IMG/VR virus record: IMGVR_UViG_3300030406_003636
Span: 1 to 63,208 of that record
Strand: one strand, 5' to 3'
Origin: a virus
DNA length: 63,208 bases
Shown here: in pieces, positions 20,525-63,208 of the stretch
Numbering within the stretch: the stretch's first letter is position 1
Layout: every line of letters starts with the position of its first letter
Notes under the pieces: model-generated
Seen by the model: the letters and a program-made list of their open reading frames with translations, nothing else
Databases searched by the model: none
Told to the model about the DNA's origin: nothing
Program-made: the position numbers and the translations under genes

Positions 20525-20549
20525 TTGTTTAATTTTATAATATTATATT

Positions 20550-23248: not shown

Positions 23249-23269
23249 AATATTTAATTTTATTATATC

Positions 23270-34510: not shown

Positions 34511-37500
34511 ATGGCAACACAAAAATTATATAACACTTTAGTAAATCGTGGGTTATATACTAAATCTTTTGACGCATTTAAACAGCAGTTTAATGACCAA
34601 AAATATAGAGAAAAAGTATATAACACTGTCACGCGTGATGGTTTGTATACTAAAGATTTAAATGAGTTTCAAACTCAGTACGCGCCTGACAACGTAAAAG
34701 ATGAAGTAGGTACTATACAAAATTTAGTTGGTGCGCTTGGCGAAGGTTTTGCAGGGCAAATTGGAGGCGGTTTGTCAGACTTAACAGTTGGTTTAGCGTT
34801 AAACACTAAGATGTTTTGGGAAAAAAACTTTGGTGATGGCGATGTTAGCGAAGATGATAAAGCTAGATTTAGAAGAGAAGCTTACCTTGAGAACAAAGAC
34901 AATATATTATTAAATCCTGACTTTTGGAAAGGTGCAGAAGATTATTTTAGAAGCATACAAAAAGAATACGAAGATCCAACAATATCAGAAGCTTTTACTA
35001 AAGCTAGTAGCATTAGTGATTATTTAGAGTTAGGCGAAAGAATAGTAGCTGGTATTTTTAAATCAGCGCCTTCTTTATTAGCTGCGTATTCAGGGCCAGG
35101 CGCTCTAGCTGTATATGGTACTAGTTTAGCTGGTGATAAGTATTTAGAAGAGTTTGATAAAGATCCAACGCAAGCTAATTCAAGATTACTTGCTAGTGCT
35201 ATAGGTACATCTGCCATTGAAGTTGGCTTTGAGTTTGCTACAAGAGGTTTAATGAAACAAGCTGGTTTGGTTGTAAAGCAAGGTAATAAAGAAGCAGCAG
35301 AAGCTATAATAAAAGGTGGTACTAAAACCATGTTCCAAAAGTTTGGTAAACCTTTAGCTCAAGAAGGTGCATCAGAGGCAGCTACTGAATTAACAAGCTT
35401 GATATATGATGCTGCTATATTAAACCCGGATGGCGTATCAGGTATTGACTGGGCAAAAGAAAAATACAGATTATTTGATGCTGGTATAGTAGGGTCAGCT
35501 ATGGGTGGTACTATAGGTTCGTTAGGTAATATAAGTAATCGTAATGAAAGAAGAAGATTAGAACAGATATTAATGCCAGATGAAGTCAAACAGCAAATAG
35601 AAAGCTCTGGTGATAGAATATCTAAATTAGTACGTGAATCAGATGGTGCTGATGCTGATACAAAATCTTTAATTGAAGATCAAATAAACAAAGAAAACAG
35701 AAATATAGTTAAGCTAAAAAATGAAGTATCAACTAAGCTTAACAATATGAATGAAACTGAGCTAAGAACTTATGCAAAAAACAAAAACGAAATAGCTAAA
35801 GTTCAAATGCAACTAAAAAAGCTTGATGTTAATTCTGAAGTATATAAGCCTGTAAAATCAAAATATGATTTATTAATAAAACAAAACTCAACGTTATATA
35901 ATAACGCTACAAAAAGAAGATTACAAGAAGACGTTACATCTGTAAAAAAACTAGCTAAAAAACAAGGTATAAAAAAAGTTAGTGTTTTAGATGATAAAGG
36001 TTTTCAAGACGCATACAAGAATACAGAAGAAGGTAGTAAGTTAAATGATAAACAATTAGCTTTACAAGCTAGCGGCGTGTCTGGGTTTTACGATAAAGCA
36101 ACTAATAGTATTTTTATTAATAAAAACGCTGCTGAAAATTATGGCCAAGTAACTGTTGCTAGCCATGAGTTACTACACCCCGTTTTAAATAAAGTATTTG
36201 GTTCAGGTGAAAGTCAAGCTGCTAAAGTTGCTGATTTTAAAAGTATATTATCTAGTAAACAAAGACGGTTAATGGATCAAGAAATGACCAACCGTGGTTA
36301 TACTAAACAAGAAGAAGCAACAGAATATTTTAATGTATTTCTTGATGCTGTAGCAGATAATAAATCTGAAATAGCTTTTGAGAAAAATTTATTCACACGT
36401 ATAGGTGAGTTTTTAAAATCAATATTTGGAGAGTATAATATTAACAATATGGATTTTGGCGATGCTAACGGTGTATTTAACTTTTTAAAAGCATACCAAG
36501 AAAGCGTTAAGCAAGGAGAGTTTACGCAAGAAGTTTCTGATATTATAGGAGATTTAAGTGACTTGCAAGATCTCGATGCTACTGGAAAACAAGACTCAAG
36601 AAACGCATCAGATCAGGTACAGCAAATATATCAACTACAGGGTCCAGCTGGTGCATTTGATATTATAGAGTTATTTAAGCCCATTACAAATAAAATAGTA
36701 GAGAAACGTAGAGGAGCGCCTAACTTTGATAAAACTTTATTAACAGAAGAAATAGAAACGGGTGAACGTGGCATTATAGACTTAATTAACGAGTACAAGC
36801 CAGACTCTGGTGTACCATTAGCAGCGTATATAAATAAGTTTTTACCGGCTAGGGCTATTGAAGCTTCACGTAGAATTTTAGGTGAAGAGTTTACAACAGA
36901 CATTGATGAAGCTAGAGGCATTGCGGCAGAAGAAGTTGCAGCGCCTGAAATAGAAACAAAGCCAAAAGCTAGACAAATAAATCCTATAGATTTAGCTAGA
37001 GATGAAACTATAAAAGAACAATATACTGAAGAGGTTGTTAGCGCTTTACAAGATGTAAATTTAGAAAAAGCAAATTTTAAAAACTTAAAAGATTTAGCCT
37101 CAACAATAACAGCTAAAATATTTAATGTACCAGCAAAGAAAATTACTGATGCTACAGCTAATTTAACTAAGCAAGAAAAAGAAAATGCCTTAAAATTTAT
37201 TAGAGCTAACGCGTTAGATTTAATTGCTTTATTACCTGAAGGCGCAGTAACAGAAGCTGCTACAGAAAAATTAATTGGTACTTCTACAGGTGTACCAAAG
37301 AGTTTGTTAAATAAATTTTACACAAAACAAAGTAGAATAACAAAAGGTGCTGGGCTATCACCGTTTACTAAAAACGCTAACATAAACAAAAAAGAGTTTT
37401 TAGAAGCTTTTGGTATCGTTGAAGGTAAAAAATCTACAGACTTTGGACCAAGAACACCTGAAGCTCAAGCTGTTAAAGCTATGATGTCATTATATGGTAA

Positions 37501-40500
37501 ACTAGCTACTAATAGTATAGCGCGTGAGCAACTAACAAATCAAGAGATTAATCAAAGTATTATAGGTGATTTAGCTGCTGGTAAATCTAGTATTCAGTTT
37601 AGTAAAAACACAAAAGCGTTACTAGAAAACAACGGCATTGAAGGTTATGTTAATGTTTTAGACAACCCTGATGTTTACATAAACGACATGGTGCCTCTAA
37701 TTATAGAAGTTTTAGGTGATAGAATATTAGGAGTTAACATTGCTAATAGACGTGGTGAATTAAACGCTGAGTTATGGACTGGTTTATTTGGCAAGCATCC
37801 AGATAGAAAACGTATTATACCAGAGTTACAAAAATTAAGAATTAAAATTGATAATGATAATCAACCAACAGGTAACCCTAATTTTAAAACAACATTTTTT
37901 AAAGATGGTAAGTTTGACCAAGGTAAAATAAAAGACATACAAAAGTTTAACGAGCAGGTTGGTAAAACTTTTGATGAAATGTGGATGAGAATTTTTGATG
38001 CTGTATCGAGAGATACAAAATATGTTTTACCAATAATGACATACATGCAAGCATCAACTAACTCTAAAACACACCCTATGAGAAATGGTGCTCAAGCTAC
38101 GCACATGGATTTTAAATCTGATGATATAGTATTAGAGCATGCATATCCACAGTCACAAGCAGCTAGAGATATTATGCAAGCTGTAATTGATAATAGAAAT
38201 AACAGAGAAGAGTTCTTAAATAAATTTAATAAAATAAAAAAAGAGTACGTTTTACATGGCATTGATAGATCTCAAGACACTAAAATAAATCAAACTAAAG
38301 AACTAGTAACTGATAAAAACCATGAGAGCTTTGGTAAAGTAACATCTTTAAAAGATCATAGTGGTAAAGATTTTGACTACATGAAACATAGTCATTTACG
38401 TAGGTATGTTAAAGCTAATGTTAATCTTGATAATTTAATATCATTAAAAACAGGTCAGCCTTTAACAGAAGAACTTGGTATAGATGGTTACGGAAACCCT
38501 ATATCAAAAGAATCTGCGGAAATAAGAAAGCAAGCAGCTGAATTAAATGAACAGCTGTTTGATAACTTAATTAAAGGTAAACCAGTTGAACAGCAAGTAG
38601 AAGATTTAAAAACGCTTGATAGAGCTTTAAACTTTTCAAGAGTACCAAGACCAGAAAAAGGTATTTCAATATTTGACTTTGACCAAACGCTAGCTAACAC
38701 TAAAGAAAAAATTAAAGTCACAATGCCTGATGGCGCTGTAAGTAGGATAGACGCAGCTGAGTTTGCTAGAGAGGCAGAGCAACTTGAGGCTGACGGAGCT
38801 GAGTTTGATTTTGCTGAATTTAATAAAGTAAAAGGCGCAACTAAAGGACCATTTTTTGAGCTGGCACAAAAGATAAAAGGTAAGTTTGGTAATAAAGATA
38901 TATTTATATTAACAGCAAGACCACAAAACGCAGCGCCAGCTATACAAAAGTTTTTAAAGGGTGTAGGTTTAGATATAAGATTAGAAAATATAACTGGTTT
39001 AGAAGACGGTAGTCCACAAGCTAAAGCAAAATTTGTAACTAAAAAAGTTGAAGAAGGTTATAATAACTTTTTCTTTGGTGATGATGCATATAAAAACGTT
39101 GAGGCCGTACAAGAAGTTTTAAACGTAGCTGATGTAAAAAATGATGTGCAGCAAGCTAAGATACAATTTAGTAAAAATTTAAATAAAAGATTTAACGAAA
39201 TAGTATCTGAAAATAAAGGTATTGATCCTGAAGCTAGATTTTCTGAAGCCGCAGCTAAAGTGCGTGGCGCTAAAGCGGATAAATTCTGGTCAAGGTTATT
39301 TGTGCCGCCATCGGCGGAGGATTTTAAAGGTTTATTATATATGCTAGTAGGCAAAGGTAAGAAAGGAGAGTCGCAAATGCAGTTTTTTGAAGACGCCTTA
39401 ATTAAACCTTTTGCTAGAGCATTTAGAGATATTAACGCGGCTAAACAAAAAATAGCTAATGAGTACGCTCAGTTAAAAAAAGATTTACCAAGCGTAAAAA
39501 GAAACTTATTACAAGCTACTGATTATAACAACTTTACTTTTGATCAAGCTATACGTGTGTATTTAATGAATAAAAATGACATTGATATACCTGGTATAGC
39601 AAAAAGAGACACAGATGCTTTAGTTAAAATAGTTGAAGCTAATCCTGAATTAACGCAGTACGCTGATAGAGTTTCGCAAATAATGAATAAACAAGAAGGA
39701 TACATAGTGCCAACTGATGTTTCTTGGTTATCATCTACAGTTGAACAAGATTTAAAAGATTTAAATAATAAAGTAAATAGATCTGAATATTTATCTGAGT
39801 GGGTAAATAACAAAAATGAAATATTCACAAGCGACAATTTAAATAAATTAGAAGCGTTATACGGTAGATCTTATAGAGAAGCATTAGAAGATATATTGTA
39901 TCGTATGGAAATTGGTAGCAATAGACCAGCAGGTCAAAATAAGTTAGTTAATGATTTTACCAGCTGGATCAACAACGCTGTAGGTAATATAATGTTTTTA
40001 AATGTAAGGTCTGCTTTATTACAGACAATATCATTTGCTAACTTTGTAAACTGGAGTGATAATAATCCGATAAAATACATGGCTACTGTAGCTAATTTTC
40101 CACAGTTTGCAAAAGATTTTGCAATGATATGGAACTCAGACTTCTTAAAAAATAGAAGAGCAGGATTACAAACAGATGTTAGCGCTTCTGAAATAGTAAA
40201 TCAAGCCGCTAATTCTAAAAATAAAGTAAGTGCTATATTATCATATATATTAGGTAAAGGATATTTACCAACACAAATGGGTGATAGTTTTGCTATATGT
40301 ATGGGTGGCGCAGGGTTTTATAGAAACAGAGTAAGCAGTTATGTAAAGCAAGGATTAAATCAAGCTGAAGCTGAAGCAAGAGCGTTTGCGGACATGCAAG
40401 AAACATCTGAAGACGCACAGCAGTCTGCTAGACCAGATAAAATATCACAACAACAAGCTGGTCCACTTGGTAGATTTATATTAGCGTTTCAAAACACGCC

Positions 40501-41185
40501 AATGCAATACACCCGTATGATAAAAAAAGCTGCTTTAGATTTAGCTAACGGTAGAGGTGATGCTAAAACAAACATATCAAAAATATTATATTATGGTGCT
40601 ATACAAAACTTTATATTCTCAGCGCTACAAAGCGCATTGTTTGCTTTAGCATTTAGCGACGAAGAAGAAGAAAAAGAGAAACAAAGATATAGTAGAATAG
40701 CTAACAGCATGGCAGATACTATATTAAGAGGTACTGGTGTTTATGGTGCTGCAGCATCAACATTAAAAAACATAGCACTGCAGTTTGTAAAGCAAGAGAA
40801 AAAAGGATCGAGAGCAGATCACGCTTATACTATAATAGAGGGTGTCAACTTGTCACCTCCAATAGGCAGTAAAATAAGAAAATTATATTCAGCAACACAG
40901 GCTGTTAAGTTTAATAGAGATGAGATAGCTGAAATGGGTTTTAATATAGATAATCCAGCTTATGATGCGGTTGCTAATACAGTTTCCGCTGTAACTAACG
41001 TGCCTCTTGATAGGGCGGTTCGTATTACTGATAACGCTAGAGCGGCATTAGATAAAAACAACGAAGCTTGGCAGCGCGTTGCTTTAGTTTTAGGTTGGAA
41101 TACGTGGGACTTAGGCATACAGCCAAACAAACAAAACACTGGTAAGAAAAGAAAAAATAAGAAAAGAGAGATAATTTTATACTAA
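34511..41185 (+). CDS. Giant polyvalent virion protein with HExxH and HAD domains
   Basis: 2224 residues. Start: two repeated YNTLVNRGLYTKSFDAFKQQF / YNTVTRDGLYTKDLNEFQTQY phrases. A hydrophobic Gly-rich part (about 75-330) could be membrane-active. At H552 there is SHELLHPVL, an HExxH zinc-peptidase motif. At D1389 starts FDFDQTLANT, followed by ILTARP (about 1465) and FFGDDAYKN (about 1523), the ordered motifs of HAD phosphatases. The C-terminal part (NIMFLNVRSALLQTISFANFVNWSDNNP, ARPDKISQQQAGPLGRFILAFQNTPMQYTR) is typical of large polyvalent proteins. It is probably carried in the virion and ejected into the host. Confidence 0.7.
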   Translation: MATQKLYNTLVNRGLYTKSFDAFKQQFNDQKYREKVYNTVTRDGLYTKDLNEFQTQYAPDNVKDEVGTIQNLVGALGEGFAGQIGGGLSDLTVGLALNTKMFWEKNFGDGDVSEDDKARFRREAYLENKDNILLNPDFWKGAEDYFRSIQKEYEDPTISEAFTKASSISDYLELGERIVAGIFKSAPSLLAAYSGPGALAVYGTSLAGDKYLEEFDKDPTQANSRLLASAIGTSAIEVGFEFATRGLMKQAGLVVKQGNKEAAEAIIKGGTKTMFQKFGKPLAQEGASEAATELTSLIYDAAILNPDGVSGIDWAKEKYRLFDAGIVGSAMGGTIGSLGNISNRNERRRLEQILMPDEVKQQIESSGDRISKLVRESDGADADTKSLIEDQINKENRNIVKLKNEVSTKLNNMNETELRTYAKNKNEIAKVQMQLKKLDVNSEVYKPVKSKYDLLIKQNSTLYNNATKRRLQEDVTSVKKLAKKQGIKKVSVLDDKGFQDAYKNTEEGSKLNDKQLALQASGVSGFYDKATNSIFINKNAAENYGQVTVASHELLHPVLNKVFGSGESQAAKVADFKSILSSKQRRLMDQEMTNRGYTKQEEATEYFNVFLDAVADNKSEIAFEKNLFTRIGEFLKSIFGEYNINNMDFGDANGVFNFLKAYQESVKQGEFTQEVSDIIGDLSDLQDLDATGKQDSRNASDQVQQIYQLQGPAGAFDIIELFKPITNKIVEKRRGAPNFDKTLLTEEIETGERGIIDLINEYKPDSGVPLAAYINKFLPARAIEASRRILGEEFTTDIDEARGIAAEEVAAPEIETKPKARQINPIDLARDETIKEQYTEEVVSALQDVNLEKANFKNLKDLASTITAKIFNVPAKKITDATANLTKQEKENALKFIRANALDLIALLPEGAVTEAATEKLIGTSTGVPKSLLNKFYTKQSRITKGAGLSPFTKNANINKKEFLEAFGIVEGKKSTDFGPRTPEAQAVKAMMSLYGKLATNSIAREQLTNQEINQSIIGDLAAGKSSIQFSKNTKALLENNGIEGYVNVLDNPDVYINDMVPLIIEVLGDRILGVNIANRRGELNAELWTGLFGKHPDRKRIIPELQKLRIKIDNDNQPTGNPNFKTTFFKDGKFDQGKIKDIQKFNEQVGKTFDEMWMRIFDAVSRDTKYVLPIMTYMQASTNSKTHPMRNGAQATHMDFKSDDIVLEHAYPQSQAARDIMQAVIDNRNNREEFLNKFNKIKKEYVLHGIDRSQDTKINQTKELVTDKNHESFGKVTSLKDHSGKDFDYMKHSHLRRYVKANVNLDNLISLKTGQPLTEELGIDGYGNPISKESAEIRKQAAELNEQLFDNLIKGKPVEQQVEDLKTLDRALNFSRVPRPEKGISIFDFDQTLANTKEKIKVTMPDGAVSRIDAAEFAREAEQLEADGAEFDFAEFNKVKGATKGPFFELAQKIKGKFGNKDIFILTARPQNAAPAIQKFLKGVGLDIRLENITGLEDGSPQAKAKFVTKKVEEGYNNFFFGDDAYKNVEAVQEVLNVADVKNDVQQAKIQFSKNLNKRFNEIVSENKGIDPEARFSEAAAKVRGAKADKFWSRLFVPPSAEDFKGLLYMLVGKGKKGESQMQFFEDALIKPFARAFRDINAAKQKIANEYAQLKKDLPSVKRNLLQATDYNNFTFDQAIRVYLMNKNDIDIPGIAKRDTDALVKIVEANPELTQYADRVSQIMNKQEGYIVPTDVSWLSSTVEQDLKDLNNKVNRSEYLSEWVNNKNEIFTSDNLNKLEALYGRSYREALEDILYRMEIGSNRPAGQNKLVNDFTSWINNAVGNIMFLNVRSALLQTISFANFVNWSDNNPIKYMATVANFPQFAKDFAMIWNSDFLKNRRAGLQTDVSASEIVNQAANSKNKVSAILSYILGKGYLPTQMGDSFAICMGGAGFYRNRVSSYVKQGLNQAEAEARAFADMQETSEDAQQSARPDKISQQQAGPLGRFILAFQNTPMQYTRMIKKAALDLANGRGDAKTNISKILYYGAIQNFIFSALQSALFALAFSDEEEEKEKQRYSRIANSMADTILRGTGVYGAAASTLKNIALQFVKQEKKGSRADHAYTIIEGVNLSPPIGSKIRKLYSATQAVKFNRDEIAEMGFNIDNPAYDAVANTVSAVTNVPLDRAVRITDNARAALDKNNEAWQRVALVLGWNTWDLGIQPNKQNTGKKRKNKKREIILY

Positions 41186-54113: not shown

Positions 54114-54863
54114 TTATAAATAATCTATAACCTGTGAAGGATCAACATTGTCTATTAATCTTTGCACAGCTTGTTTTTTTAATTGAGATACCCTAACGTA
54201 AGAACTCGTGCCTTTTATTTCTAATATCAAAGCTATTTGTTTAGCTGAATGTTTATCACAATCAAGTCCATAGCTTAATCTTAGCACTTCATACTCTTTT
54301 CTGTTCAAGTATTTCTTCATTAAACTTTTTAAATAACTATTTAAAAGATCTATATTATATTTTTCAGTTTTATCTTCGATCTGAAATATCATATCGTTAT
54401 TTTCAGTCTGCTCTTCAATACTTAAAAATATTGAATTAAAAAACTGAGCAACAAGCTTTTTATCTTCGCCTAAGTTTCTACGCATCTCGTTTAACTTATG
54501 CTCAGGTATTCTCATGCCTGCTCTATTAATATCAATAGCTCTTCTTATAGCACCTTTAATTCGTTTAGATAAAAACGATATTAAAGTTTTTTCTGGATTA
54601 TCACTATCAATGATAGTATCCCAGTCAATTTTATTAGCCGCAGCAATTAAGCCATAGCTACCTTCCTGTATTAAATCTGTTATATCTAATACTCCTGACG
54701 CTGCTTGGCCAGTTGAAAACTTACGTGCTAAATTTTCAACTAGATATAAGTAACGTACTTTAACAGCTTCAGTATCACCTAATATGTCTTCAGGTAACCT
54801 GCTGTTAACTTGTTCTACATCATTTTTATACCTGATGTAGTTTTCAACATTATACTTTCTCAT
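54114..54863 (-). CDS. Phage RNA polymerase sigma factor (sigma-70 family)
   Basis: 249 residues. Region 2: VRYLYLVENLARKFSTG..LDITDLIQEGSYGLIAAANKIDW, then FLSKRIKGAIRRAIDINRAGMRIPEHKLNEMRR (regions 2.4-3). Region 4: LNRKEYEVLRLSYGLDCDKHSAKQIALILEIKGTSSYVRVSQLKKQAVQRLID with the helix-turn-helix. The region 4 insertion KGTSSY is longer than usual. It would direct host RNA polymerase to phage promoters; the 31-nt elements in the early region are candidates. It overlaps the HTH gene upstream by 14 bases. Confidence 0.88.
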   Translation of the reverse strand: MRKYNVENYIRYKNDVEQVNSRLPEDILGDTEAVKVRYLYLVENLARKFSTGQAASGVLDITDLIQEGSYGLIAAANKIDWDTIIDSDNPEKTLISFLSKRIKGAIRRAIDINRAGMRIPEHKLNEMRRNLGEDKKLVAQFFNSIFLSIEEQTENNDMIFQIEDKTEKYNIDLLNSYLKSLMKKYLNRKEYEVLRLSYGLDCDKHSAKQIALILEIKGTSSYVRVSQLKKQAVQRLIDNVDPSQVIDYL

Positions 54864-55470
54864 TACTATTTAATAAACGTTTCTCAACCCTCAGTTCCTC
54901 ACACATGTTTCTATGTATAGTACGAGTCGTACAACTAAGGAAATTAGCTAAGTTGTTAATTGTTATTTTATCACCAATGCTATTTATTGTAAGCATTGCA
55001 TCATAAATATTATCTTTGCTAGCTTTTTTACCTTTACCAATTAAGCTACCTACAATTTTAAGTTTTTTAGATATATCAAGACCAGTACCTGGTTTAAATA
55101 TAACTTTTCTTATTTTATTTTTAGGTGCTTCATCAGTTTTATTATCAATAACATCATTAACTATTTTAGTTAACAATGCGTTTGATATTGTAAAGGTAAT
55201 AAATCCATTTGACTTATCACAAATAAATTGCGATAAATTTCTAAATTTTTTCTCAGTTATTTTTTCGTTTAAATAATAAAGAACAAGCAAATGCCACTTT
55301 AGAGATTTATATGTCGTAATTTTAGCCTTACTTCTAAACAACTCATAACACTCGTAAGTACCGTTTTCATAATAACTACCCCACCAATATTTTTTAGTAG
55401 GTTGTTCGGTTGGATAACCTTTATATATTATCCTATTACGATGTAAATACTCTAAATTTCTGTGTGACAT
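54850..55470 (-). CDS. Helix-turn-helix regulator-like protein
   Basis: 206 residues. No named family, but the C-terminal region INSIGDKITINNLANFLSCTTRTIHRNMCEELRVEKRLL is a good helix-turn-helix (LANFLSCTTRTIHRNM). N terminus MSHRNLEYLHRNRIIYKGYPTEQPTKKYWWGSYYENGTYECYELFRSKAKI looks compact and basic. Its ATG sits inside the right arm of the 45-nt dyad element at 55464, which would make it self-regulated if it binds there. The same element precedes the late unit at 61686. Confidence 0.55.
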   Translation of the reverse strand: MSHRNLEYLHRNRIIYKGYPTEQPTKKYWWGSYYENGTYECYELFRSKAKITTYKSLKWHLLVLYYLNEKITEKKFRNLSQFICDKSNGFITFTISNALLTKIVNDVIDNKTDEAPKNKIRKVIFKPGTGLDISKKLKIVGSLIGKGKKASKDNIYDAMLTINSIGDKITINNLANFLSCTTRTIHRNMCEELRVEKRLLNSNEKV

Positions 55471-56436: not shown

Positions 56437-57295
56437 AATTACGTATAGTTTTAAATAGTGGATGCCTGTAGCTTCCAGCTTTTGTTCTTTCAAAGTATGT
56501 AAAGGTAGCAATTTTACCGACATATCTTTGCATTTTCTTAAAATTCTTTTGTAGATATTCAAAATTATCCATTACTGGCATGCCAAACTTAACACCATCG
56601 CTGTCAATAGCAATGAATTTACCAATAGTACCGCGCCTTTTGCCTTTGCCTTCAACCCAGTCAACAATTTTAGCTTCGGTATCGCTGAAGTCTTTGAACT
56701 TCATTAGATCGTATGATCTACCGCATTTGTACGGGCCATCAAGCCTTAGTATAGAGCCTTCGTAGCCTTTTTCTAAGAAGTCATTGTGTATTTCTTTAGC
56801 TTTATCAAGACTATGCACGCCTCTTGACGGTACATATCTGATGTGTTTACCATACATATCGCTGCATACTAGTTGATGCATACGTTTTTCATACCTGTTC
56901 ATATCAGACTCTATTAAATCTAGCTTACCTTTGTATGCCATAACAAAATCATACACATGGTATTGTATGAGCTTACGTGCCTCTTTCCTGTCCTCTGGCT
57001 TTGGTTTTTGTTTTCTGACAAGAGATACGATCTTTTCGAAATTATCTCTTAGATCGTGATTATATAACTCGCCATCAATCACAAGCAATGGGTTTGCTTT
57101 GAATAAATCTTGTATAGCTTTTGTATATAAGTGTTGTACATTCATGAATTTTTTACCGTTACGGGAGTAACAGCCATCAGCAGTCATGATACACCTGATG
57201 CCATCTAGTTTAGGTTGTATAAATACTGGTTTGGACCAGTCAACTCGCTTATTATCGAACTTATGTGCGAGCATAGGTTTAAAGTGTGTCTTCAT
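56429..57295 (-). CDS. lig: ATP-dependent DNA ligase
   Basis: 288 residues, T7-like small ligase. Motif I VFIQPKLDGIRCI with the adenylated Lys (K-L-D-G), motif III LVIDGELYNHDL, motif IV YEGSILRLDG and motif V DLMKFKDF, then an OB-fold C-terminal domain (AKIVDWVEGKGKRRGTIGKFIAIDSDGVKFGMP). Joins nicks during replication and recombination. Overlaps its neighbours on both sides. Confidence 0.93.
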   Translation of the reverse strand: MKTHFKPMLAHKFDNKRVDWSKPVFIQPKLDGIRCIMTADGCYSRNGKKFMNVQHLYTKAIQDLFKANPLLVIDGELYNHDLRDNFEKIVSLVRKQKPKPEDRKEARKLIQYHVYDFVMAYKGKLDLIESDMNRYEKRMHQLVCSDMYGKHIRYVPSRGVHSLDKAKEIHNDFLEKGYEGSILRLDGPYKCGRSYDLMKFKDFSDTEAKIVDWVEGKGKRRGTIGKFIAIDSDGVKFGMPVMDNFEYLQKNFKKMQRYVGKIATFTYFERTKAGSYRHPLFKTIRNYE

Positions 57296-57497
57296 ATTTT
57301 TTAAGTTGTTTTTCTAGTTTTGATATTTTTCTTCTTACAGTTGCTCTTTGCATTAGAGCAGTTTGTGCTTTTTCGTATTCTTCTTCATCAACAAAGCTTT
57401 GTTCTAGCTTTATTAACGTATCCCAGTGCCAGTGTAAATCAGCTATTTCTGATCGTAACTCAAATGTTTTTTGCAATTTTTTTATTTTATTATCCAA
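57279..57497 (-). CDS. Coiled-coil hypothetical protein, non-ATG start
   Basis: Up to 72 residues, helical with heptads (LRSEIADLHWHWDTLIKLEQSFVDEEEYEKAQTALMQRATVRRKISKLEKQLKKYEDTL). The first codon of the open frame (57497) is TTG inside promoter element A, where TTGGATAAT is probably promoter and not code. A second TTG at 57476 would give 65 residues and fits a start a few bases after transcription initiation. No ATG is available upstream of the coiled coil. Confidence 0.5.
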   Translation of the reverse strand: MDNKIKKLQKTFELRSEIADLHWHWDTLIKLEQSFVDEEEYEKAQTALMQRATVRRKISKLEKQLKKYEDTL

Positions 57498-57518
57498 TGG
57501 TGTTCGTATTTAATTTGT
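57488..57518 (-). promoter_or_regulatory. Early promoter-like element A
   Basis: 31-nt element read leftward: ACAAA - TTAAA - TACGA - ACACCATT - GGATAATA. GATAAT would be the -10 box and ACAAA, 24 nt upstream, the -35 box. The same three blocks at identical spacing occur at 59140, 59893, 60717, 61373 and 61522. It precedes the 57279-57497 coiled-coil gene; unlike copies B, C and E no ATG follows at 6 nt. Confidence 0.7.
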
Positions 57519-58015
57519 TAATCATATCCTGTTGGATGTAGTAAATCTTTTGCTACATACTGTTTTTCTTGTTGTGATCTAGTTTGCGTAACCCAGTCAG
57601 TGTAGTCATACTTCTGATTACTATACTTCGCAAGTATTTTATCAGGTGTAAGTACAAATACATTTGCTGTCCTGTATTGATCATAGCAGCTTACCCACAT
57701 ATCTTTGTTATCACCTGTCCATATTACATATGTATAGTTATGATCTATAACTTCTGGACCTTCATATAAGTAGCAACTGTCATAGTACATATCATGTACA
57801 AGTTTAGCTGCAAGCTTAGTGCCATCGTTAATTGTTTGGTTAGCTAATAACCAGTTAGCTATTTGTACGCCTTGCCACTCAGGATAACCATCGTGATGCA
57901 AGTACATATTAACATAGCTATGTTCTTCTAGCAACTCAGGGTTTTGTGCAAAACCTAGTTCGTGGTTGCTTGCGTAATCTCTATCGATTACCATTGTCAT
58001 GTTTCTAGTGCTCAT
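57518..58015 (-). CDS. Conserved hypothetical phage protein
   Basis: 165 residues. Start MSTRNMTMVIDRDYASNHELGFAQNPELLEEHSYVNMYLHHDGYPEWQGVQIANWLLANQTINDGTKLAAKLVHDMYYDSCYLYEGPEVIDHNYTYVIWTGDNKDMWVSCYD. The N-terminal part with YVNMYLHHDGYPEWQGVQIANWL recurs in phages of marine bacteria but has no known role. Mixed alpha/beta. The open frame ends at the first base after promoter element A. Confidence 0.6.
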   Translation of the reverse strand: MSTRNMTMVIDRDYASNHELGFAQNPELLEEHSYVNMYLHHDGYPEWQGVQIANWLLANQTINDGTKLAAKLVHDMYYDSCYLYEGPEVIDHNYTYVIWTGDNKDMWVSCYDQYRTANVFVLTPDKILAKYSNQKYDYTDWVTQTRSQQEKQYVAKDLLHPTGYD

Positions 58016-58301
58016 CTAATAATTGTTTAAATTTGTGTTTAGTTATAATATCGCCGCAGTATTTATATATTGTTTCTTTATCTTGTGTAACACAAAGCTC
58101 TTTTGACTTTGTTTTAGCACCAAGGTCAACGCATATATCTTTACTGCAGTCATGATAAACTTTCCATATAGCTTCTAATGTTCTACGTGGATCGTCAGTT
58201 TCGCCTACGACATGCTCGTCGTCACAGGTAAACCAATATCTATATTTTTTCTTTTTATATTGTGATTTTTTAATTAAGTTACCTCTAGCGTCTATTTTCA
58301 T
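58005..58301 (-). CDS. Hypothetical early protein
   Basis: 98 residues: MKIDARGNLIKKSQYKKKKYRYWFTCDDEHVVGETDDPRRTLEAIWKVYHDCSKDICVDLGAKTKSKELCVTQDKETIYKYCGDIITKHKFKQLLDEH. Basic start, several Cys. Overlaps the next gene by 11 bases. The ATG overlaps the stop of the small upstream gene (ATGA). Function unknown. Confidence 0.55.
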   Translation of the reverse strand: MKIDARGNLIKKSQYKKKKYRYWFTCDDEHVVGETDDPRRTLEAIWKVYHDCSKDICVDLGAKTKSKELCVTQDKETIYKYCGDIITKHKFKQLLDEH

Positions 58302-58456
58302 TTTAAGCCGCTTTTCATATCTTTAATCATTTCATGGATGTCACTGTGGTAGTCACTCCATTTATCTCTGTGTTCTTCGTAAAAAGACTGTTCACATCTT
58401 CTTTGCATGTCATCTTTTATTATTTCTAATAAACTTTGTAAGTGATCTGTTCTCAT
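58298..58456 (-). CDS. Very small hypothetical protein
   Basis: 52 residues: MRTDHLQSLLEIIKDDMQRRCEQSFYEEHRDKWSDYHSDIHEMIKDMKSGLK. It is set by two ATGA overlaps, with the 58453-58761 stop upstream and the 58301 ATG downstream. Helical, charged. Function unknown. Confidence 0.6.
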   Translation of the reverse strand: MRTDHLQSLLEIIKDDMQRRCEQSFYEEHRDKWSDYHSDIHEMIKDMKSGLK

Positions 58457-58761
58457 CTTTCATCTTTAAATAATGCTAAACCAAGCTTAGCATAGTTAAT
58501 AATATCAGCAAATCTACTATCAATAGACTCTGCTTTTACTATATTATCATGGTTAACATGCGAAAATATACTATTTACCTGCTTGTCAAAGTATGTAGCC
58601 CATACCTTTAACGCACTGGTATTCAATCGCTTAGCTGTACTTTTAAAATTATTTAGTACATCATCATGCATTACTGTGTACTCAGGGCCTTTATCTCTCA
58701 TTATATGATCAGCCATGAGATCAATTTGTTGTCTTAATTTATTAAATTCTTTTTGTGTCAT
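58453..58761 (-). CDS. Nmad1/DUF1599-like hypothetical protein
   Basis: 102 residues: MTQKEFNKLRQQIDLMADHIMRDKGPEYTVMHDDVLNNFKSTAKRLNTSALKVWATYFDKQVNSIFSHVNHDNIVKAESIDSRFADIINYAKLGLALFKDER. KGPEY...D.L.NFK...ESID.R..D.INYA resembles small phage proteins grouped with nucleotide-modification domains. The alignment is by eye and weak. A link to nucleotide metabolism is a hypothesis. Confidence 0.5.
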   Translation of the reverse strand: MTQKEFNKLRQQIDLMADHIMRDKGPEYTVMHDDVLNNFKSTAKRLNTSALKVWATYFDKQVNSIFSHVNHDNIVKAESIDSRFADIINYAKLGLALFKDER

Positions 58762-58762
58762 A

Positions 58763-58903
58763 TTATTTACCGTTAGACATTTCGTTATATAATTCTATTA
58801 ATCTGTCTGTTTTCGCTTCTGCTATTAATCGTTCTACTTCTTCTTCGCCATAGTGCGCGCAAAGTGCTTCGATCATAGCCTGCTCGTGTAGTAATCCTTC
58901 CAT
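58763..58903 (-). CDS. Very small acidic protein
   Basis: 46 residues: MEGLLHEQAMIEALCAHYGEEEVERLIAEAKTDRLIELYNEMSNGK. Helical and acidic. Its stop is 1 base before the ATG at 58761 and its ATG is 3 bases after the 58907 stop codon. Function unknown. Confidence 0.55.
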   Translation of the reverse strand: MEGLLHEQAMIEALCAHYGEEEVERLIAEAKTDRLIELYNEMSNGK

Positions 58904-58906
58904 ACA

Positions 58907-59134
58907 TTACATTTTACTGTTAAACATAGTGTCAGGCCAAAGTATATCGCCATCAGTAACTGTAGTTACATCGCCAAATGCTCTGATCTGTTTAATTTCA
59001 CCGATTGTGAGTTCGTTGTAATACTGCTTTGATTTAAGTGTTTTAATAATACCTGTTATACTTACGGCATAATCATTGCTGTTTCTATGCAGTCTTGTTT
59101 TAATTTCTGGTTTTAGTTTTTGGTATAAATTCAT
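58907..59134 (-). CDS. Small early protein with predicted leaderless start
   Basis: 75 residues: MNLYQKLKPEIKTRLHRNSNDYAVSITGIIKTLKSKQYYNELTIGEIKQIRAFGDVTTVTDGDILWPDTMFNSKM. Basic N terminus. The ATG at 59134 begins exactly 6 nt after the GATAAT box of promoter element E, which would put the A of ATG at +1. No known family. Confidence 0.6.
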   Translation of the reverse strand: MNLYQKLKPEIKTRLHRNSNDYAVSITGIIKTLKSKQYYNELTIGEIKQIRAFGDVTTVTDGDILWPDTMFNSKM

Positions 59135-59139
59135 AATTA

Positions 59140-59170
59140 TATTATCCGTAGTTAATCGTATTTACTTTGT
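59140..59170 (-). promoter_or_regulatory. Early promoter-like element E
   Basis: Read leftward: ACAAA - GTAAA - TACGA - TTAACTAC - GGATAATA. Same block order and spacing as the other copies. It overlaps the stop codon of the 59152 gene. The ATG of the next gene follows GATAAT after exactly 6 nt, so the predicted mRNA is leaderless. Confidence 0.75.
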
Positions 59171-59355
59171 ATAATTTTTAATTCTTCTTCAATATCCTCT
59201 CTGTAATGAAGTATATCGTCACAGTAGGCTAACATATCTATCAGACCATTTCTTTCATACTCTGTTAGATCTTTATAATCGCCGTCCATAATGGCGTCCA
59301 AGCAGTCGCTCATAGCTTTACTTGTATTTTCAAATCTGCAATAACTCATATTCAT
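59152..59355 (-). CDS. Conserved phage protein (MSYCRFENT family)
   Basis: 67 residues from the ATG at 59355 (MNMSYCRFENTSKAMSDCLDAIMDGDYKDLTEYERNGLIDMLAYCDDILHYREDIEEELKIIQSKYD). MSYCRFENT followed by DC.DA is a conserved start of small proteins in many phages, so the upstream Met at 59385 is not needed. Cys-rich, acidic. Its end overlaps promoter element E. Confidence 0.6.
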   Translation of the reverse strand: MNMSYCRFENTSKAMSDCLDAIMDGDYKDLTEYERNGLIDMLAYCDDILHYREDIEEELKIIQSKYD

Positions 59356-59385
59356 ATCTGGCGGCCAACCTGTGAGCAATGTCAT

Positions 59386-59671
59386 AAGCTTCTCACGATG
59401 GACCGAGTTACGTATTGTTCACTTTGGGCTCACCCCTGGACGAAGTTACATCGCCTCCCCAATACTGCGGTGCTTCCATCAGCCTGTAGTGGTCAGTGAA
59501 GGAATCGAACCTTCATTGTTTTCAACACGAGATCTACCGTGTTTCCTGTATTGTGCTACGTTCCGAAGAACCGAACCACCCATACCTGACCTGCGGTGTT
59601 ACTCATAGGTGATCAAACCTAACTAGTTACCGCTGCGTTATCAGTGAATCTCCTAGGATAAATAATAACGC
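59386..59671 (-). ncRNA. Structured non-coding RNA region with tRNA-type T-arm
   Basis: 286 bases without a supported gene and less AT-rich than the surroundings. A perfect T-arm stem-loop lies at 59498-59514, read leftward as GAAGG-TTCGATT-CCTTC, and ACTGACC after it can pair with GGT(T)CGGT (7 bp with one bulged T and one wobble) like an acceptor stem. A GTTC-TTCG-GAAC tetraloop hairpin and the pair TAGGT/ACCTA are also present. Two near-copies of TGGAC..GTTAC lie at 59399-59411 and 59437-59449. I could not fold an ordinary anticodon arm with T at position 33. A tRNA-derived or decayed tRNA cluster, or a phage RNA, is likely. Confidence 0.5.
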
Positions 59672-59887
59672 TTATATATTTTTTAGCATCGTGCCATAAC
59701 CTCGGCGTTCTGTTAACTTACGAATGCGTTTCGCTTGTTCCTTCGGCATAATTTGAATGGTGTTGCCGGTTTTGTGGTAGGTTAAACTAATACAACCATA
59801 AGGTTGGGTGGTTGAACAAGCTACACACGTCTTATAACCTAAGTTAACACGCGCTTGAGGTATATTTCTTCCGCATTTACATATCAT
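59672..59887 (-). CDS. Small zinc-ribbon protein with predicted leaderless start
   Basis: 71 residues from the ATG at 59887: MICKCGRNIPQARVNLGYKTCVACSTTQPYGCISLTYHKTGNTIQIMPKEQAKRIRKLTERRGYGTMLKNI. Two CxC/CxxC pairs (C3, C5 and C21, C24) suggest a zinc ribbon. The frame opens at 59902 with TTG inside promoter element B; the ATG at 59887 is preferred because it is 6 nt after the GATAAT box, as in copies C and E. The R-V-N-L-G-Y-K-T-C pattern recalls DksA/TraR-type ribbons. Confidence 0.6.
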   Translation of the reverse strand: MICKCGRNIPQARVNLGYKTCVACSTTQPYGCISLTYHKTGNTIQIMPKEQAKRIRKLTERRGYGTMLKNI

Positions 59888-59892
59888 ACATT

Positions 59893-59923
59893 TATTATCC
59901 AATAGTGATCGTATTTAGTTTGC
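59893..59923 (-). promoter_or_regulatory. Early promoter-like element B
   Basis: Read leftward: GCAAA - CTAAA - TACGA - TCACTATT - GGATAATA. One base differs in the -35 block. It overlaps the stop codon of the 59915 gene. The ATG at 59887 starts exactly 6 nt after GATAAT. Confidence 0.75.
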
Positions 59924-60130
59924 AATTTTATTAGTTAGTGTTGCTACACCCATTTTAATTGCCACTCTTTTAGCTACAGCTTTCATTAATGTATGTTGTA
60001 CTTTATTTGGTTGATTAAGTTTGTAACCGTCTAGTGACCAGTGACATACTCTTTCAATGTCTTTGATAATTTCTTTAGCATTTTCTTCTGCTAAATGCTC
60101 AAATTCTTCAATACTTAGTTTACTTAGCAT
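59915..60130 (-). CDS. Hypothetical early protein
   Basis: 71 residues: MLSKLSIEEFEHLAEENAKEIIKDIERVCHWSLDGYKLNQPNKVQHTLMKAVAKRVAIKMGVATLTNKIAN. Helical. Overlaps the upstream gene by 11 bases. Function unknown. Confidence 0.55.
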   Translation of the reverse strand: MLSKLSIEEFEHLAEENAKEIIKDIERVCHWSLDGYKLNQPNKVQHTLMKAVAKRVAIKMGVATLTNKIAN

Positions 60131-60563
60131 AATTTTTTAAGTAATAGTTTAACATATAGTTTAGACTTACCATCATATTTAGATGTTTTTCGTACGCCAT
60201 TTGCATATACTGTCTGGTTTCCATCCAGCTTTTCTTGCCATCGCTGCGCATTACAGTATATTTATGCAGCCTACTATATCTTCTATTTACAGGGTAAGGA
60301 CAGTACGCGCCGTTAAGTTTTCTTACCATACCTGACTTATAAACCGCCATACGTAGTTTAGTTTTAGGTAATCTGTGCGCACCATTGTACGCTATCATTT
60401 GTTTACTGAAGCAACTAACAGGAAACTCGAAAGCTCGAGTGCCATTTAGTGCTTGTCTTCGCGTAGTTACTTCACGTATATCATAACGTAGTAACATATT
60501 TCTAGCAAAAGCATCTTGTAGTGCTCGCTGTTCTTTGTAGTAATTATTTATTGTTCCAGCCAT
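60120..60563 (-). CDS. Hypothetical basic early protein
   Basis: 147 residues: basic (many Arg, Lys, Tyr, Met), start MAGTINNYYKEQRALQDAFARNMLLRYDIREVTTRRQALNGTRAFEFPVSCFSKQMIAYNGAHRLPKTKLRMAVYKSGMVRKLNGAYCPYPVNRRYSRLHKYTVMRSDGKKSWMETRQYMQMAYEKHLNMM. No motif recognised. Overlaps the upstream small gene by 20 bases. Possibly a host-takeover protein binding nucleic acid. Confidence 0.55.
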   Translation of the reverse strand: MAGTINNYYKEQRALQDAFARNMLLRYDIREVTTRRQALNGTRAFEFPVSCFSKQMIAYNGAHRLPKTKLRMAVYKSGMVRKLNGAYCPYPVNRRYSRLHKYTVMRSDGKKSWMETRQYMQMAYEKHLNMMVSLNYMLNYYLKNYAK

Positions 60564-60711
60564 TTCTGTATTTAATTTTAAAGTAATCTTTTATTTCATT
60601 GCCGTTTTCGTCATATACAGCGACAGCGTCGCCAAATAACTCGTACATATCTTTTTCTGTTGTACCTTTGCCACACTTTATGGTTGAGTACGCGTTATAT
60701 TTTATATTCAT
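60544..60711 (-). CDS. Small early protein with predicted leaderless start
   Basis: 55 residues: MNIKYNAYSTIKCGKGTTEKDMYELFGDAVAVYDENGNEIKDYFKIKYRNGWNNK. ATG at 60711 is exactly 6 nt after the GATAAT box of promoter element C. It overlaps the next gene by 20 bases. The phrase DAVAVYDENGNEIKDYFKIK is compact and beta-like. Function unknown. Confidence 0.6.
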   Translation of the reverse strand: MNIKYNAYSTIKCGKGTTEKDMYELFGDAVAVYDENGNEIKDYFKIKYRNGWNNK

Positions 60712-60716
60712 AATAG

Positions 60717-60747
60717 TATTATCCGTTAGTGTTCGTATTAATATTGT
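60717..60747 (-). promoter_or_regulatory. Early promoter-like element C
   Basis: Read leftward: ACAAT - ATTAA - TACGA - ACACTAAC - GGATAATA. It overlaps the 3' end of the 36-residue gene at 60719 (TAA lies in the -10 box). The ATG at 60711 begins 6 nt after GATAAT. Confidence 0.75.
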
Positions 60748-60829
60748 ATTCTACATATTCTTGGTAATCTTCTATTGTTACCCACTTGTCTATTTCATCA
60801 AGGTAAATCATGCCATCAATTACTTTCAT
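60719..60829 (-). CDS. Very small protein
   Basis: 36 residues: MKVIDGMIYLDEIDKWVTIEDYQEYVEYNINTNTNG. Its ATG overlaps the stop of the 60826-60963 gene (ATGA), which supports a real translated frame. Its C-terminal codons run into promoter element C. Function unknown. Confidence 0.45.
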   Translation of the reverse strand: MKVIDGMIYLDEIDKWVTIEDYQEYVEYNINTNTNG

Positions 60830-60963
60830 AAGTAGACACCAAAATCAGTTAAACCTCTTGTTAAGGCGAAATATAATCCACCAATTACACCGTACATAGC
60901 GGTGCCACCTAGTATTATTTTTACAGTAATGTCAATCACTGTATGTGTAAATTTTCTATTCAT
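60826..60963 (-). CDS. Tiny membrane protein
   Basis: 45 residues: MNRKFTHTVIDITVKIILGGTAMYGVIGGLYFALTRGLTDFGVYL. One hydrophobic, Gly-rich segment (VKIILGGTAMYGVIGGLYFAL). ATG overlaps the stop of the 29-residue gene upstream (ATGA). Early membrane protein; possible exclusion or envelope function. Confidence 0.55.
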   Translation of the reverse strand: MNRKFTHTVIDITVKIILGGTAMYGVIGGLYFALTRGLTDFGVYL

Positions 60964-61049
60964 ATTATTAAAAGTGAAAAATAAGTTAGTAATGTTAGTG
61001 CTAGTAAGAATAATATATTCTCAATTAGCTCGCGTATATTTATATTCAT
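60960..61049 (-). CDS. Tiny membrane protein
   Basis: 29 residues: MNINIRELIENILFLLALTLLTYFSLLII, nearly all hydrophobic after the first eight. It overlaps the next ATG by 4 bases. The chain of ATGA overlaps 60960/60826/60719 is the main support; a frame this short could also be chance. Confidence 0.45.
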   Translation of the reverse strand: MNINIRELIENILFLLALTLLTYFSLLII

Positions 61050-61052
61050 AGT

Positions 61053-61122
61053 TCTCTTGTGGGTAATCGAAACCCACCTCTGCTCCAAGAAGAGATGGTA
61101 ATCACTACTGTTATTGTAGTGA
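61053..61122 (-). ncRNA. T-arm-like RNA hairpins near the leftward unit's start
   Basis: Plus-strand arms GTGGGT (61059-61064) and ACCCAC (61072-61077) enclose a 7-nt loop that read leftward is TTCGATT, exactly a T-loop. TCTCTT (61053-61058) and AAGAGA (61090-61095) can form a 6-bp stem stacked on it, with 12 nt bulged, as in an acceptor plus T-arm. A second perfect hairpin, TCACTAC/GTAGTGA (61102-61122), lies over the stop codon of the 61111 gene. No complete tRNA can be folded. Same T-loop as the 59386 region. Confidence 0.5.
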
Positions 61123-61338
61123 CTTACCTCTTAATACTACTGGTATATTATTAGTAGCAGTGTACGACTTATACTTTAACCAACATGGTAATTTAGTTAA
61201 GTTGTCTTTCATTATTGAGAAAACTTTATCGTGGTTGTACGTAATTTCGTGACCATCTTTGTTAGTAAAAGTTATATTAGTGTTTGTATTAAGTAAACTT
61301 TTTCTTATTACAAATCTTTTAGAAGTTATAGTATTCAT
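61111..61338 (-). CDS. Hypothetical first early protein
   Basis: 75 residues: MNTITSKRFVIRKSLLNTNTNITFTNKDGHEITYNHDKVFSIMKDNLTKLPCWLKYKSYTATNNIPVVLRGKSLQ. Basic, beta-like. First gene of the leftward unit, about 35 nt below promoter D and further below promoter F. Unlike the three leaderless genes it has a leader. Function unknown; early position suggests host takeover. Confidence 0.6.
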   Translation of the reverse strand: MNTITSKRFVIRKSLLNTNTNITFTNKDGHEITYNHDKVFSIMKDNLTKLPCWLKYKSYTATNNIPVVLRGKSLQ

Positions 61339-61372
61339 AGTTGTATTATGTTTAAGTGTTATAGTATATTTA

Positions 61373-61403
61373 TATTATCCAAATAGTTTCGTAATTAGTT
61401 TGT
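61373..61403 (-). promoter_or_regulatory. Early promoter-like element D
   Basis: Read leftward: ACAAA - CTAAT - TACGA - AACTATTT - GGATAATA. It precedes the first early gene (ATG 61338) with a leader of about 29 nt. A further ACAAACTCACTAC copy lies just upstream (61408-61420). Confidence 0.75.
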
Positions 61404-61521
61404 AAAAGTAGTGAGTTTGTTTACTAGTAAAAAATAGTTTAGTAGTATTGCCGCCACACTCTTCTTTTCTCATACTAATTCTAAAAAGTTGAAACATTTT
61501 TCTAAATTTTATTTTCATATA

Positions 61522-61552
61522 TAGTATCCATAGTGAAGCGTAGTGAGTTTGT
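61522..61552 (-). promoter_or_regulatory. Early promoter-like element F
   Basis: Read leftward: ACAAA - CTCAC - TACGC - TTCACTAT - GGATACTA. It differs in the TACGA block (C at the last base) and in -10 (GATACT). Same 31-nt geometry. It would add a second, weaker start for the leftward unit, 149 nt upstream of element D. Confidence 0.6.
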
Positions 61553-61685: not shown

Positions 61686-61730
61686 GTGACAATAGCCTAT
61701 ATAATCCTAATAGTAAGGGGCTAATGTCAC
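61686..61730 (+). promoter_or_regulatory. 45-nt dyad element, copy 2 (upstream of late unit)
   Basis: Arms GTGACAATAGCC (61686-61697) and GGCTAATGTCAC (61719-61730), 11 of 12 bases complementary, with a 21-nt spacer, the same spacing as copy 1. Rightward reading gives GTGACA, 17 nt, AATAGT, a weaker -10 than copy 1. Downstream of the right arm ACACTGTAAATTT resembles the start of the HTH gene (ACACAGAAATTT), so the element looks like a duplicated copy of that gene's control region. It lies 60 bases before the first late ATG at 61791. Confidence 0.7.
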
Positions 61731-62831: not shown

Positions 62832-63208
62832 ATGGAATATAATAATCCGACTGAGATCGTAAAGGATCTTAATTTTGGTGACATCGCCAAAAATCAAATT
62901 GTAGCTGGAGTAGATAAATTAGCTTCAGCGGTAAAATCTACCCTTGGCGCGTCAGGTAAATGTGTTATTTACGAAGACGCTAGGGGTAAACCGGTGATTA
63001 CAAAAGACGGGGTAACGGTAGCGGAATCCGTTGTCTTATATGATCCGGTTGAAAACATAGGTGCTACACTAATTAAAGAGGCATCTAAAAATACAGTGAA
63101 AGAAGCAGGTGACGGTACTACTACAGCTATCGTGCTTGCTCAATCACTATTAAACAACATAAATAATGATAAAGCTGTTAAACAAAATAATTGTTCTATT
63201 AGAGAAGT
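62832..63208 (+). CDS. groEL: GroEL chaperonin, 5' portion (continues at base 1)
   Basis: Begins MEYNNPTEIVKDLNFGDIAKNQIVAGVDKLASAVKSTLGASGKCVIYEDARGKPVITKDGVTVAESVVL, the classical GroEL start (apart from a short N-terminal extension), with ITKDGVTVA matching the apical/equatorial conserved strand and GDGTTT in the overlap. The frame joins that of the base-2 start. The leader AAATTTA-ATG lacks a Shine-Dalgarno sequence. The right copy encodes Gln where the left copy (base 152) encodes Glu. Confidence 0.95.
   Translation, partial: MEYNNPTEIVKDLNFGDIAKNQIVAGVDKLASAVKSTLGASGKCVIYEDARGKPVITKDGVTVAESVVLYDPVENIGATLIKEASKNTVKEAGDGTTTAIVLAQSLLNNINNDKAVKQNNCSIRE
63032..63208. repeat. Terminal overlap, right copy (circle closure)
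   Basis: 177 bases equal to bases 1-177 with two differences (63110 T for C, 63183 C for G). The first is silent (GGC or GGT, Gly); the second changes Glu to Gln in GroEL. This suggests reads from slightly different members of one phage population. Confidence 0.9.

Follow-up and report, generated by a model that had tools for sequence, protein, structure and literature searches.

A probable phage-specific early promoter

The virus record IMGVR_UViG_3300030406_003636, all 63,208 bases of which form the stretch analyzed here (the window), carries on its minus strand six copies of a rigidly spaced element that an earlier note on its sequence had taken for a phage-specific early promoter. That description is strongly supported by comparison across genomes: the element is present in 20 of 20 genomes that encode a particular phage sigma factor and in none of 6 relatives that do not, its sites cluster upstream of the early genes, it is followed by the signature of a transcription start, and host promoter boxes are nearly gone from the genomes that have it. 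The label early is taken from gene order only. We put at roughly two in three the probability that this promoter drives the early cluster and is read by host core RNA polymerase (RNAP) carrying the phage sigma factor, perhaps with a partner protein.

The consensus is TACRA-N6-TACGA-N9-GATAAT-N5-T(-1)-R(+1). The string AATACGA-N9-GATAAT occurs 124 times, and zero times at any other spacing from 4 to 15; TACAA-N6-TACGA occurs 112 times versus at most 14 at any other spacing, and TACAA-N20-GATAAT 127 times versus at most 10. In the upstream half, TACRA recurs in direct orientation around -35 at an 11-bp period, equal to one helical turn; this is the arrangement of a CII-type site, and the TACAA and TACGA parts are as well conserved as GATAAT. 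The repeat makes a helper protein plausible.

In the window, the elements placed by the earlier note at 57488, 59140, 59893, 60717, 61373, and 61522 have identical spacing and at most 1 mismatch each, that mismatch being found at 59893 (GCAAA) and 60717 (ACAAT) while the other four are exact. Even at up to 3 mismatches the window contains these six alone; shuffled versions give a mean of 0.34 and a maximum of 2. The copies, with coordinates in the window and lengths in nucleotides (nt) and amino acids (aa), relate to open reading frames (ORFs) as follows.

61522..61552, minus strand: promoter copy 1, ACAAACTCACTACGCTTCACTATGGATACTA; predicted +1 at 61516 (G), where there is no ATG; an ATG in frame lies at +20
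61373..61403, minus strand: promoter copy 2; predicted +1 at 61367, giving a leader of 29 nt ahead of the conserved 75-aa gene 61111-61338
60717..60747, minus strand: promoter copy 3; predicted +1 at 60711, the A of the ATG of ORF 60544-60711 (leaderless)
59893..59923, minus strand: promoter copy 4; predicted +1 at 59887, the A of the ATG of ORF 59672-59887 (leaderless)
59140..59170, minus strand: promoter copy 5; predicted +1 at 59134, the A of the ATG of ORF 58907-59134 (leaderless)
57488..57518, minus strand: promoter copy 6; predicted +1 at 57482, at the 5' end of ORF 57279-57497

The ATGs reported 6 nt past GATAAT at 59140, 59893, and 60717 are where the earlier note put them. Its remark that the elements overlap the stop codon of the upstream ORF holds for five of the six copies and fails for 61522. 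At that copy, the ATG of ORF 61375-61518 begins 2 bases upstream of the predicted transcription start, and the ORF has no relative among 19 genomes, so its start is probably miscalled. Copy 57488 is the final one ahead of the ligase-to-sigma genes; in loci L019-L021 and L023, the ATG of the gene homologous to 57279-57497 falls within the promoter spacer.

Transcription start and leaderless genes

The start site was counted on 232 exact-pattern copies, using a search pattern that stopped short of the +1 position. Among the 173 copies with no ATG there, the base 7 nt past GATAAT is a purine in 170 (A in 89, G in 81), with G reaching at most 12 at nearby positions versus the 81 at +1, and T is found at -1 in 109. 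A T(-1)R(+1) pattern is the look that would be expected of a transcription start after a sigma-type -10 element. An apparent peak of ATG at offset 4 (53 sites) was set aside as start codons, being mostly ATGTAA, that is, T(-1)G(+1).

An ATG lies exactly at +1 in 59 of the 232 copies (about 26%). When an open frame is also asked for, ATG at +1 is found at 45 of 171 weight-matrix sites, with 8 at the next commonest position, and an A at +1 continues as TG in 43 of 113 copies versus 5% for a downstream A. The sequences support leaderless starts for the three window genes and for about a quarter of all copies, and a message beginning at the A of AUG is a prediction with a strong sequence signature. 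The remaining copies would give leaders, mostly of 2-56 nt. Orthologs of the gene behind 59893 keep the promoter in 18 of 19 cases, with a leader of 0 nt in nine, 2 nt in three, and 10-22 nt in six; orthologs of the gene behind 61373 also keep it, always with a leader, of 19-56 nt. Because ortholog leaders range from 0 upward, leaderlessness appears to be a gene-by-gene option, not a rule. In Flavobacterium psychrophilum, 5.5% of mRNAs are leaderless (PMC9723704).

The product of 59672-59887 is 71 aa long and has a CxC...CxxC pattern; 17 of 19 genomes have this protein, and its gene lies nearly always immediately 3' of a promoter copy. By eye it resembles a small TraR/DksA-type zinc protein; Pfam gives no match.

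Distribution and the link to a sigma gene

The exact 20-base core is found in at least 117 IMG/VR stretches, with up to eight copies per stretch. In 257 Gb of prokaryote genomes it is found in 12 stretches, just one of them with more than one copy, and a search of cultured phages gave no convincing match. A search with the sigma gene at 54114 returned 17 loci, and wherever there was sufficient upstream sequence (L013, L015, L016, L020, L021, and L023) several promoter copies were present, in 6 of 6.

The comparison set consists of 20 nearly whole sigma-bearing genomes (the window and 19 others) and the 6 relatives without sigma. Each of the sigma-bearing genomes has 5-22 weight-matrix sites, 166 of the total of 171 being distinct, with repeated contig ends explaining the remainder. 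All but two (169/171) share the strand of the sigma gene and are located around and upstream of it, and five genomes examined closely have exactly six sites each. Motif-bearing contigs of at least 60 kb encode the sigma in 22 of 22 cases; the 12 motif contigs with no sigma are all shorter and probably fragments. The earlier note had named in advance the absence of the motif from related phages as grounds for abandoning its claim; related phages have it, and the claim stands.

Contigs G043 (L326 and L175), G021, and G059 have two matches to the same sigma family, the pair in G043 being different from each other; these are either sigma duplications or joined genomes.

The sigma factor and its 206-aa neighbor

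54114..54863, minus strand: sigma factor of 249 aa with regions 2 and 4, the proposed reader; phrog_351 at E = 5e-18, NCBIfam sigma-70 above cutoff
54850..55470, minus strand: 206-aa protein with a C-terminal helix-turn-helix (HTH), the candidate helper; overlaps the sigma gene by 14 nt

Profile searching of the PDB matches the 54114-54863 protein to SigA, RpoD, and FliA with alignments at 26-133 and 168-242, and fold searching returns sigma factors at a probability of 1.00, so that the conserved regions 2 and 4 of the sigma-70 family are both present. Invariant residues are enriched in regions 2.3-3.0 (13/32 versus 26/217, P = 2e-4), in keeping with the invariant -10 element.

The 206-aa gene directly precedes the sigma gene, with a 4- or 14-nt overlap in 35 of 44 loci, and both proteins are found in 19 of 19 other sigma-bearing genomes and in 0 of the 6 sigma-less relatives. 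The protein's structure model has a predicted local distance difference test (pLDDT) score of 87.6, and residues R183, T184, and R187 of the HTH are invariant. Pfam supports the HTH only weakly (E = 0.033), and a fold search found nothing at E below 0.001.

Host group, host boxes, and late elements

Positions 1-177 and 63032-63208 of the window, which lie inside groEL, agree at 99% over 177 bp. Since both ends share these near-identical bases, the record probably represents a whole circular genome whose terminal overlap is imperfect. By terminase, the relatives are podoviruses: an uncultured Manatee Spring record at 64%, Flavobacterium elemo phages at 45%, and Maribacter Panino, Cellulophaga phi38:1 and phi19:3, and Tenacibaculum Gundel at 33-41%. 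A crAss-like identity, first assumed from the giant proteins, was dropped, since the terminase points instead to elemo, Cellulophaga, and Tenacibaculum phages. The host group is probably Bacteroidota, which the A-rich, G-poor context of the gene starts matches and supports without proving.

Bacteroidota sigmaA reads TTG / TAnnTTTG, and GATAAT is unlike it (PMC9723704). The TAnnTTTG -7 box is absent from the promoter logo, and upstream of genes it is found at a mean of 0.45 per genome in the 20 sigma-bearing phages versus 11.8 in the six sigma-less relatives. Two late virion genes of the window have something else at their starts.

20530..20549, plus strand: AT-only element TAATTTTATAATATTATATT, a candidate late promoter, abutting the ATG of a late virion gene
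23255..23269, plus strand: AT-rich element TAATTTTATTATATC, abutting the ATG of a second late virion gene

At these same two genes, an AT-rich element runs right up to the ATG in sigma-bearing phages, and sigma-less relatives mostly have the host box, for example TATCTTTG. Because host boxes are nearly gone and AT-rich elements stand at the late genes instead, the sigma-bearing group would seem, as far as scans can tell, to be off host-type promoters both early and late.

How the promoter may be read

In the reading we favor, host core RNAP carrying the phage sigma would recognize GATAAT along with some of the upstream half, and the 206-aa partner perhaps sits on the TACRA repeat. With the sigma operon behind the last promoter copy, the system would amplify itself, and the host, in which Shine-Dalgarno sites are little used, would translate the leaderless messages directly. 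The preference for host core and phage sigma comes from the regions found in the sigma, from the phyletic pattern, and from finding no phage RNAP.

Several considerations weigh against it. All of the support is at the level of sequence. The motif does not vary in step with the divergence of the sigmas, no covariation being detected (Mantel r = 0.005), so that coevolution gives no support to the sigma as reader. The sigma-bearing phages are a single related group, and co-occurrence may reflect shared descent. Absolutely fixed spacing together with the TACRA repeat is unusual for sigma-70-type recognition by itself, and the sigma could serve the late AT-rich elements instead. The earlier note's suggestion that the 54114 sigma may read the promoter fits the perfect co-occurrence in large contigs, and is qualified by the lack of covariation and by the repeat, which hints at a helper. 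Finally, if the sigma gene is transcribed solely from the promoter that the sigma serves, its first expression requires delivery of the protein or leakiness; given that the gene follows such a promoter and that host promoters are not detected, either the sigma is delivered or leaky, or the promoter has another reader. Virion delivery is proposed because no host-type promoter is available for the first copy. The wider picture, of a group wholly off the host promoter language, with many leaderless starts and with a virion-delivered sigma (perhaps along with its partner) starting infection, is tentative, and on balance we doubt it.

The 11-bp-period direct repeat and the rigid spacing could also mean that a phage protein, with 54850-55470 the candidate, binds TACRA-N6-TACGA and recruits host RNAP with a host sigma to GATAAT, the phage sigma then serving late genes. 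The invariant HTH residues of the candidate, its having the same phyletic pattern as the sigma, and the different non-host element at the late genes all fit this arrangement. It is nevertheless unlikely, as GATAAT does not resemble the TAnnTTTG of Bacteroidota sigmaA (PMC9723704), a conserved, linked sigma with region 4 exists, and the HTH assignment is the weak one given above. An unrecognized phage RNAP, such as one carried in the virion, would account for rigid spacing and for host promoters not being seen; giant virion proteins are present, and the promoter core is similar to the T7 promoter TAATACGACTCACTATAGGG, ATACGA aligning with T7 -15 to -10 if +1 is placed on the G of GATAAT. The purine signature is instead 7 nt past GATAAT, not on its G. 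No single-subunit RNAP (PF00940) was found in ten genomes, where a control phage scored E = 1e-109, and neither a beta-prime domain (controls 14/14) nor DFDGD in a virion protein was found at the sequence level; the 2224-aa protein of the window has no RNAP motifs or convincing PDB matches. The T7-like promoter and polymerase, attractive for the ATACGA match, were rejected for want of a polymerase and for the wrong start position, and a phage RNAP of any kind we consider very improbable.

Host-read early promoters are usual in phages, and a host alternative sigma factor might read this one unaided. The scarcity of the exact core in prokaryote genomes, with a single multicopy stretch, speaks against that, as does the use of TAnnTTTG by sigma-less relatives, and nothing similar is found among F. 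psychrophilum motifs (PMC9723704); we give this explanation little credence. Stop-codon overlap and the position of some copies just ahead of start codons could suggest that it is not a promoter but some signal in the DNA or RNA of gene junctions, such as one for translation initiation. However, most copies have no ATG at the fixed distance and still keep T(-1)R(+1), some homologs start inside the element, and the upstream TACAA and TACGA are conserved as well as GATAAT, leaving such a signal barely credible.

Comparison with known systems

SPO1 gp28 and T4 gp55 are phage sigmas with a promoter class distinct from that of the host, and the window phage group resembles them in having a phage sigma and its own promoter class. 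It differs in that the early, sigma-containing cluster is itself of the phage class with no host-type promoter detectable, in the absolutely rigid spacing, and in the many leaderless starts. The group-3 sigmas FliA and WhiG read promoters of the form GCCGATAA. The window sigma aligns along its whole length with FliA (1rp3, E = 4e-11) and GATAA is shared in the -10, but the spacing and upstream half differ and the 249-aa protein is just distantly related. Lambda CII binds TTGC-N6-TTGC around -35, which is likewise a direct repeat of 11-bp period, with a different half-site; a CII relative has not been identified here. The Bacteroidota sigmaA promoter is connected by the probable host group and by the box that sigma-less relatives have at the same late genes, and is set apart by the GATAAT -10, the TACRA repeat, and the lack of TAnnTTTG here (PMC9723704). 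Promoters of AR9 and phiKZ, as here, keep the distance from element to start constant and have T-A/G at the start (PMC5312081), but are read by phage multisubunit RNAPs, of which none was found in this group; AR9 leaders are 26-491 nt (PMC5312081). Searches of the open-access literature, with subscription journals mostly outside it, found no account of this promoter or of such phage-sigma use in Bacteroidota phages.

Neighboring features

The minus-strand region 59460-59671 is non-coding. It contains GAAGGTTCGATTCCTTC, which resembles the T arm of a tRNA, and its ends pair as GGTCAG/CTGACC; its folding beats shuffles (z = -2.6), and ARAGORN and Rfam report nothing. A second T-arm-like hairpin lies near 61060-61085, with no Rfam match. 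At the divergent early/late gene boundary, 61687-61729 holds the inverted repeat TGACAATAGCC ... GGGGCTAATGTCA, and four other genomes have sequence like it; it is possibly an operator, an origin, or a late promoter. The gene at 34511-41185 encodes the 2224-aa virion-side protein, present in every sigma-bearing genome, with conserved HELLH and HAD-like DFDxT motifs. It was tried as an RNAP and rejected on those motifs and on having no convincing PDB match; it is probably a polyvalent injected protein.

Significance

For a widespread group of uncultivated phages, sequence alone defines an early promoter, its transcription start, and the likely sigma. That makes automatic annotation of their early operons possible and gives many natural leaderless genes for study, and the promoter-sigma pair could serve as a tool in Bacteroidota. 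The question of most interest that it raises is how a phage with no host-type promoters begins transcription.
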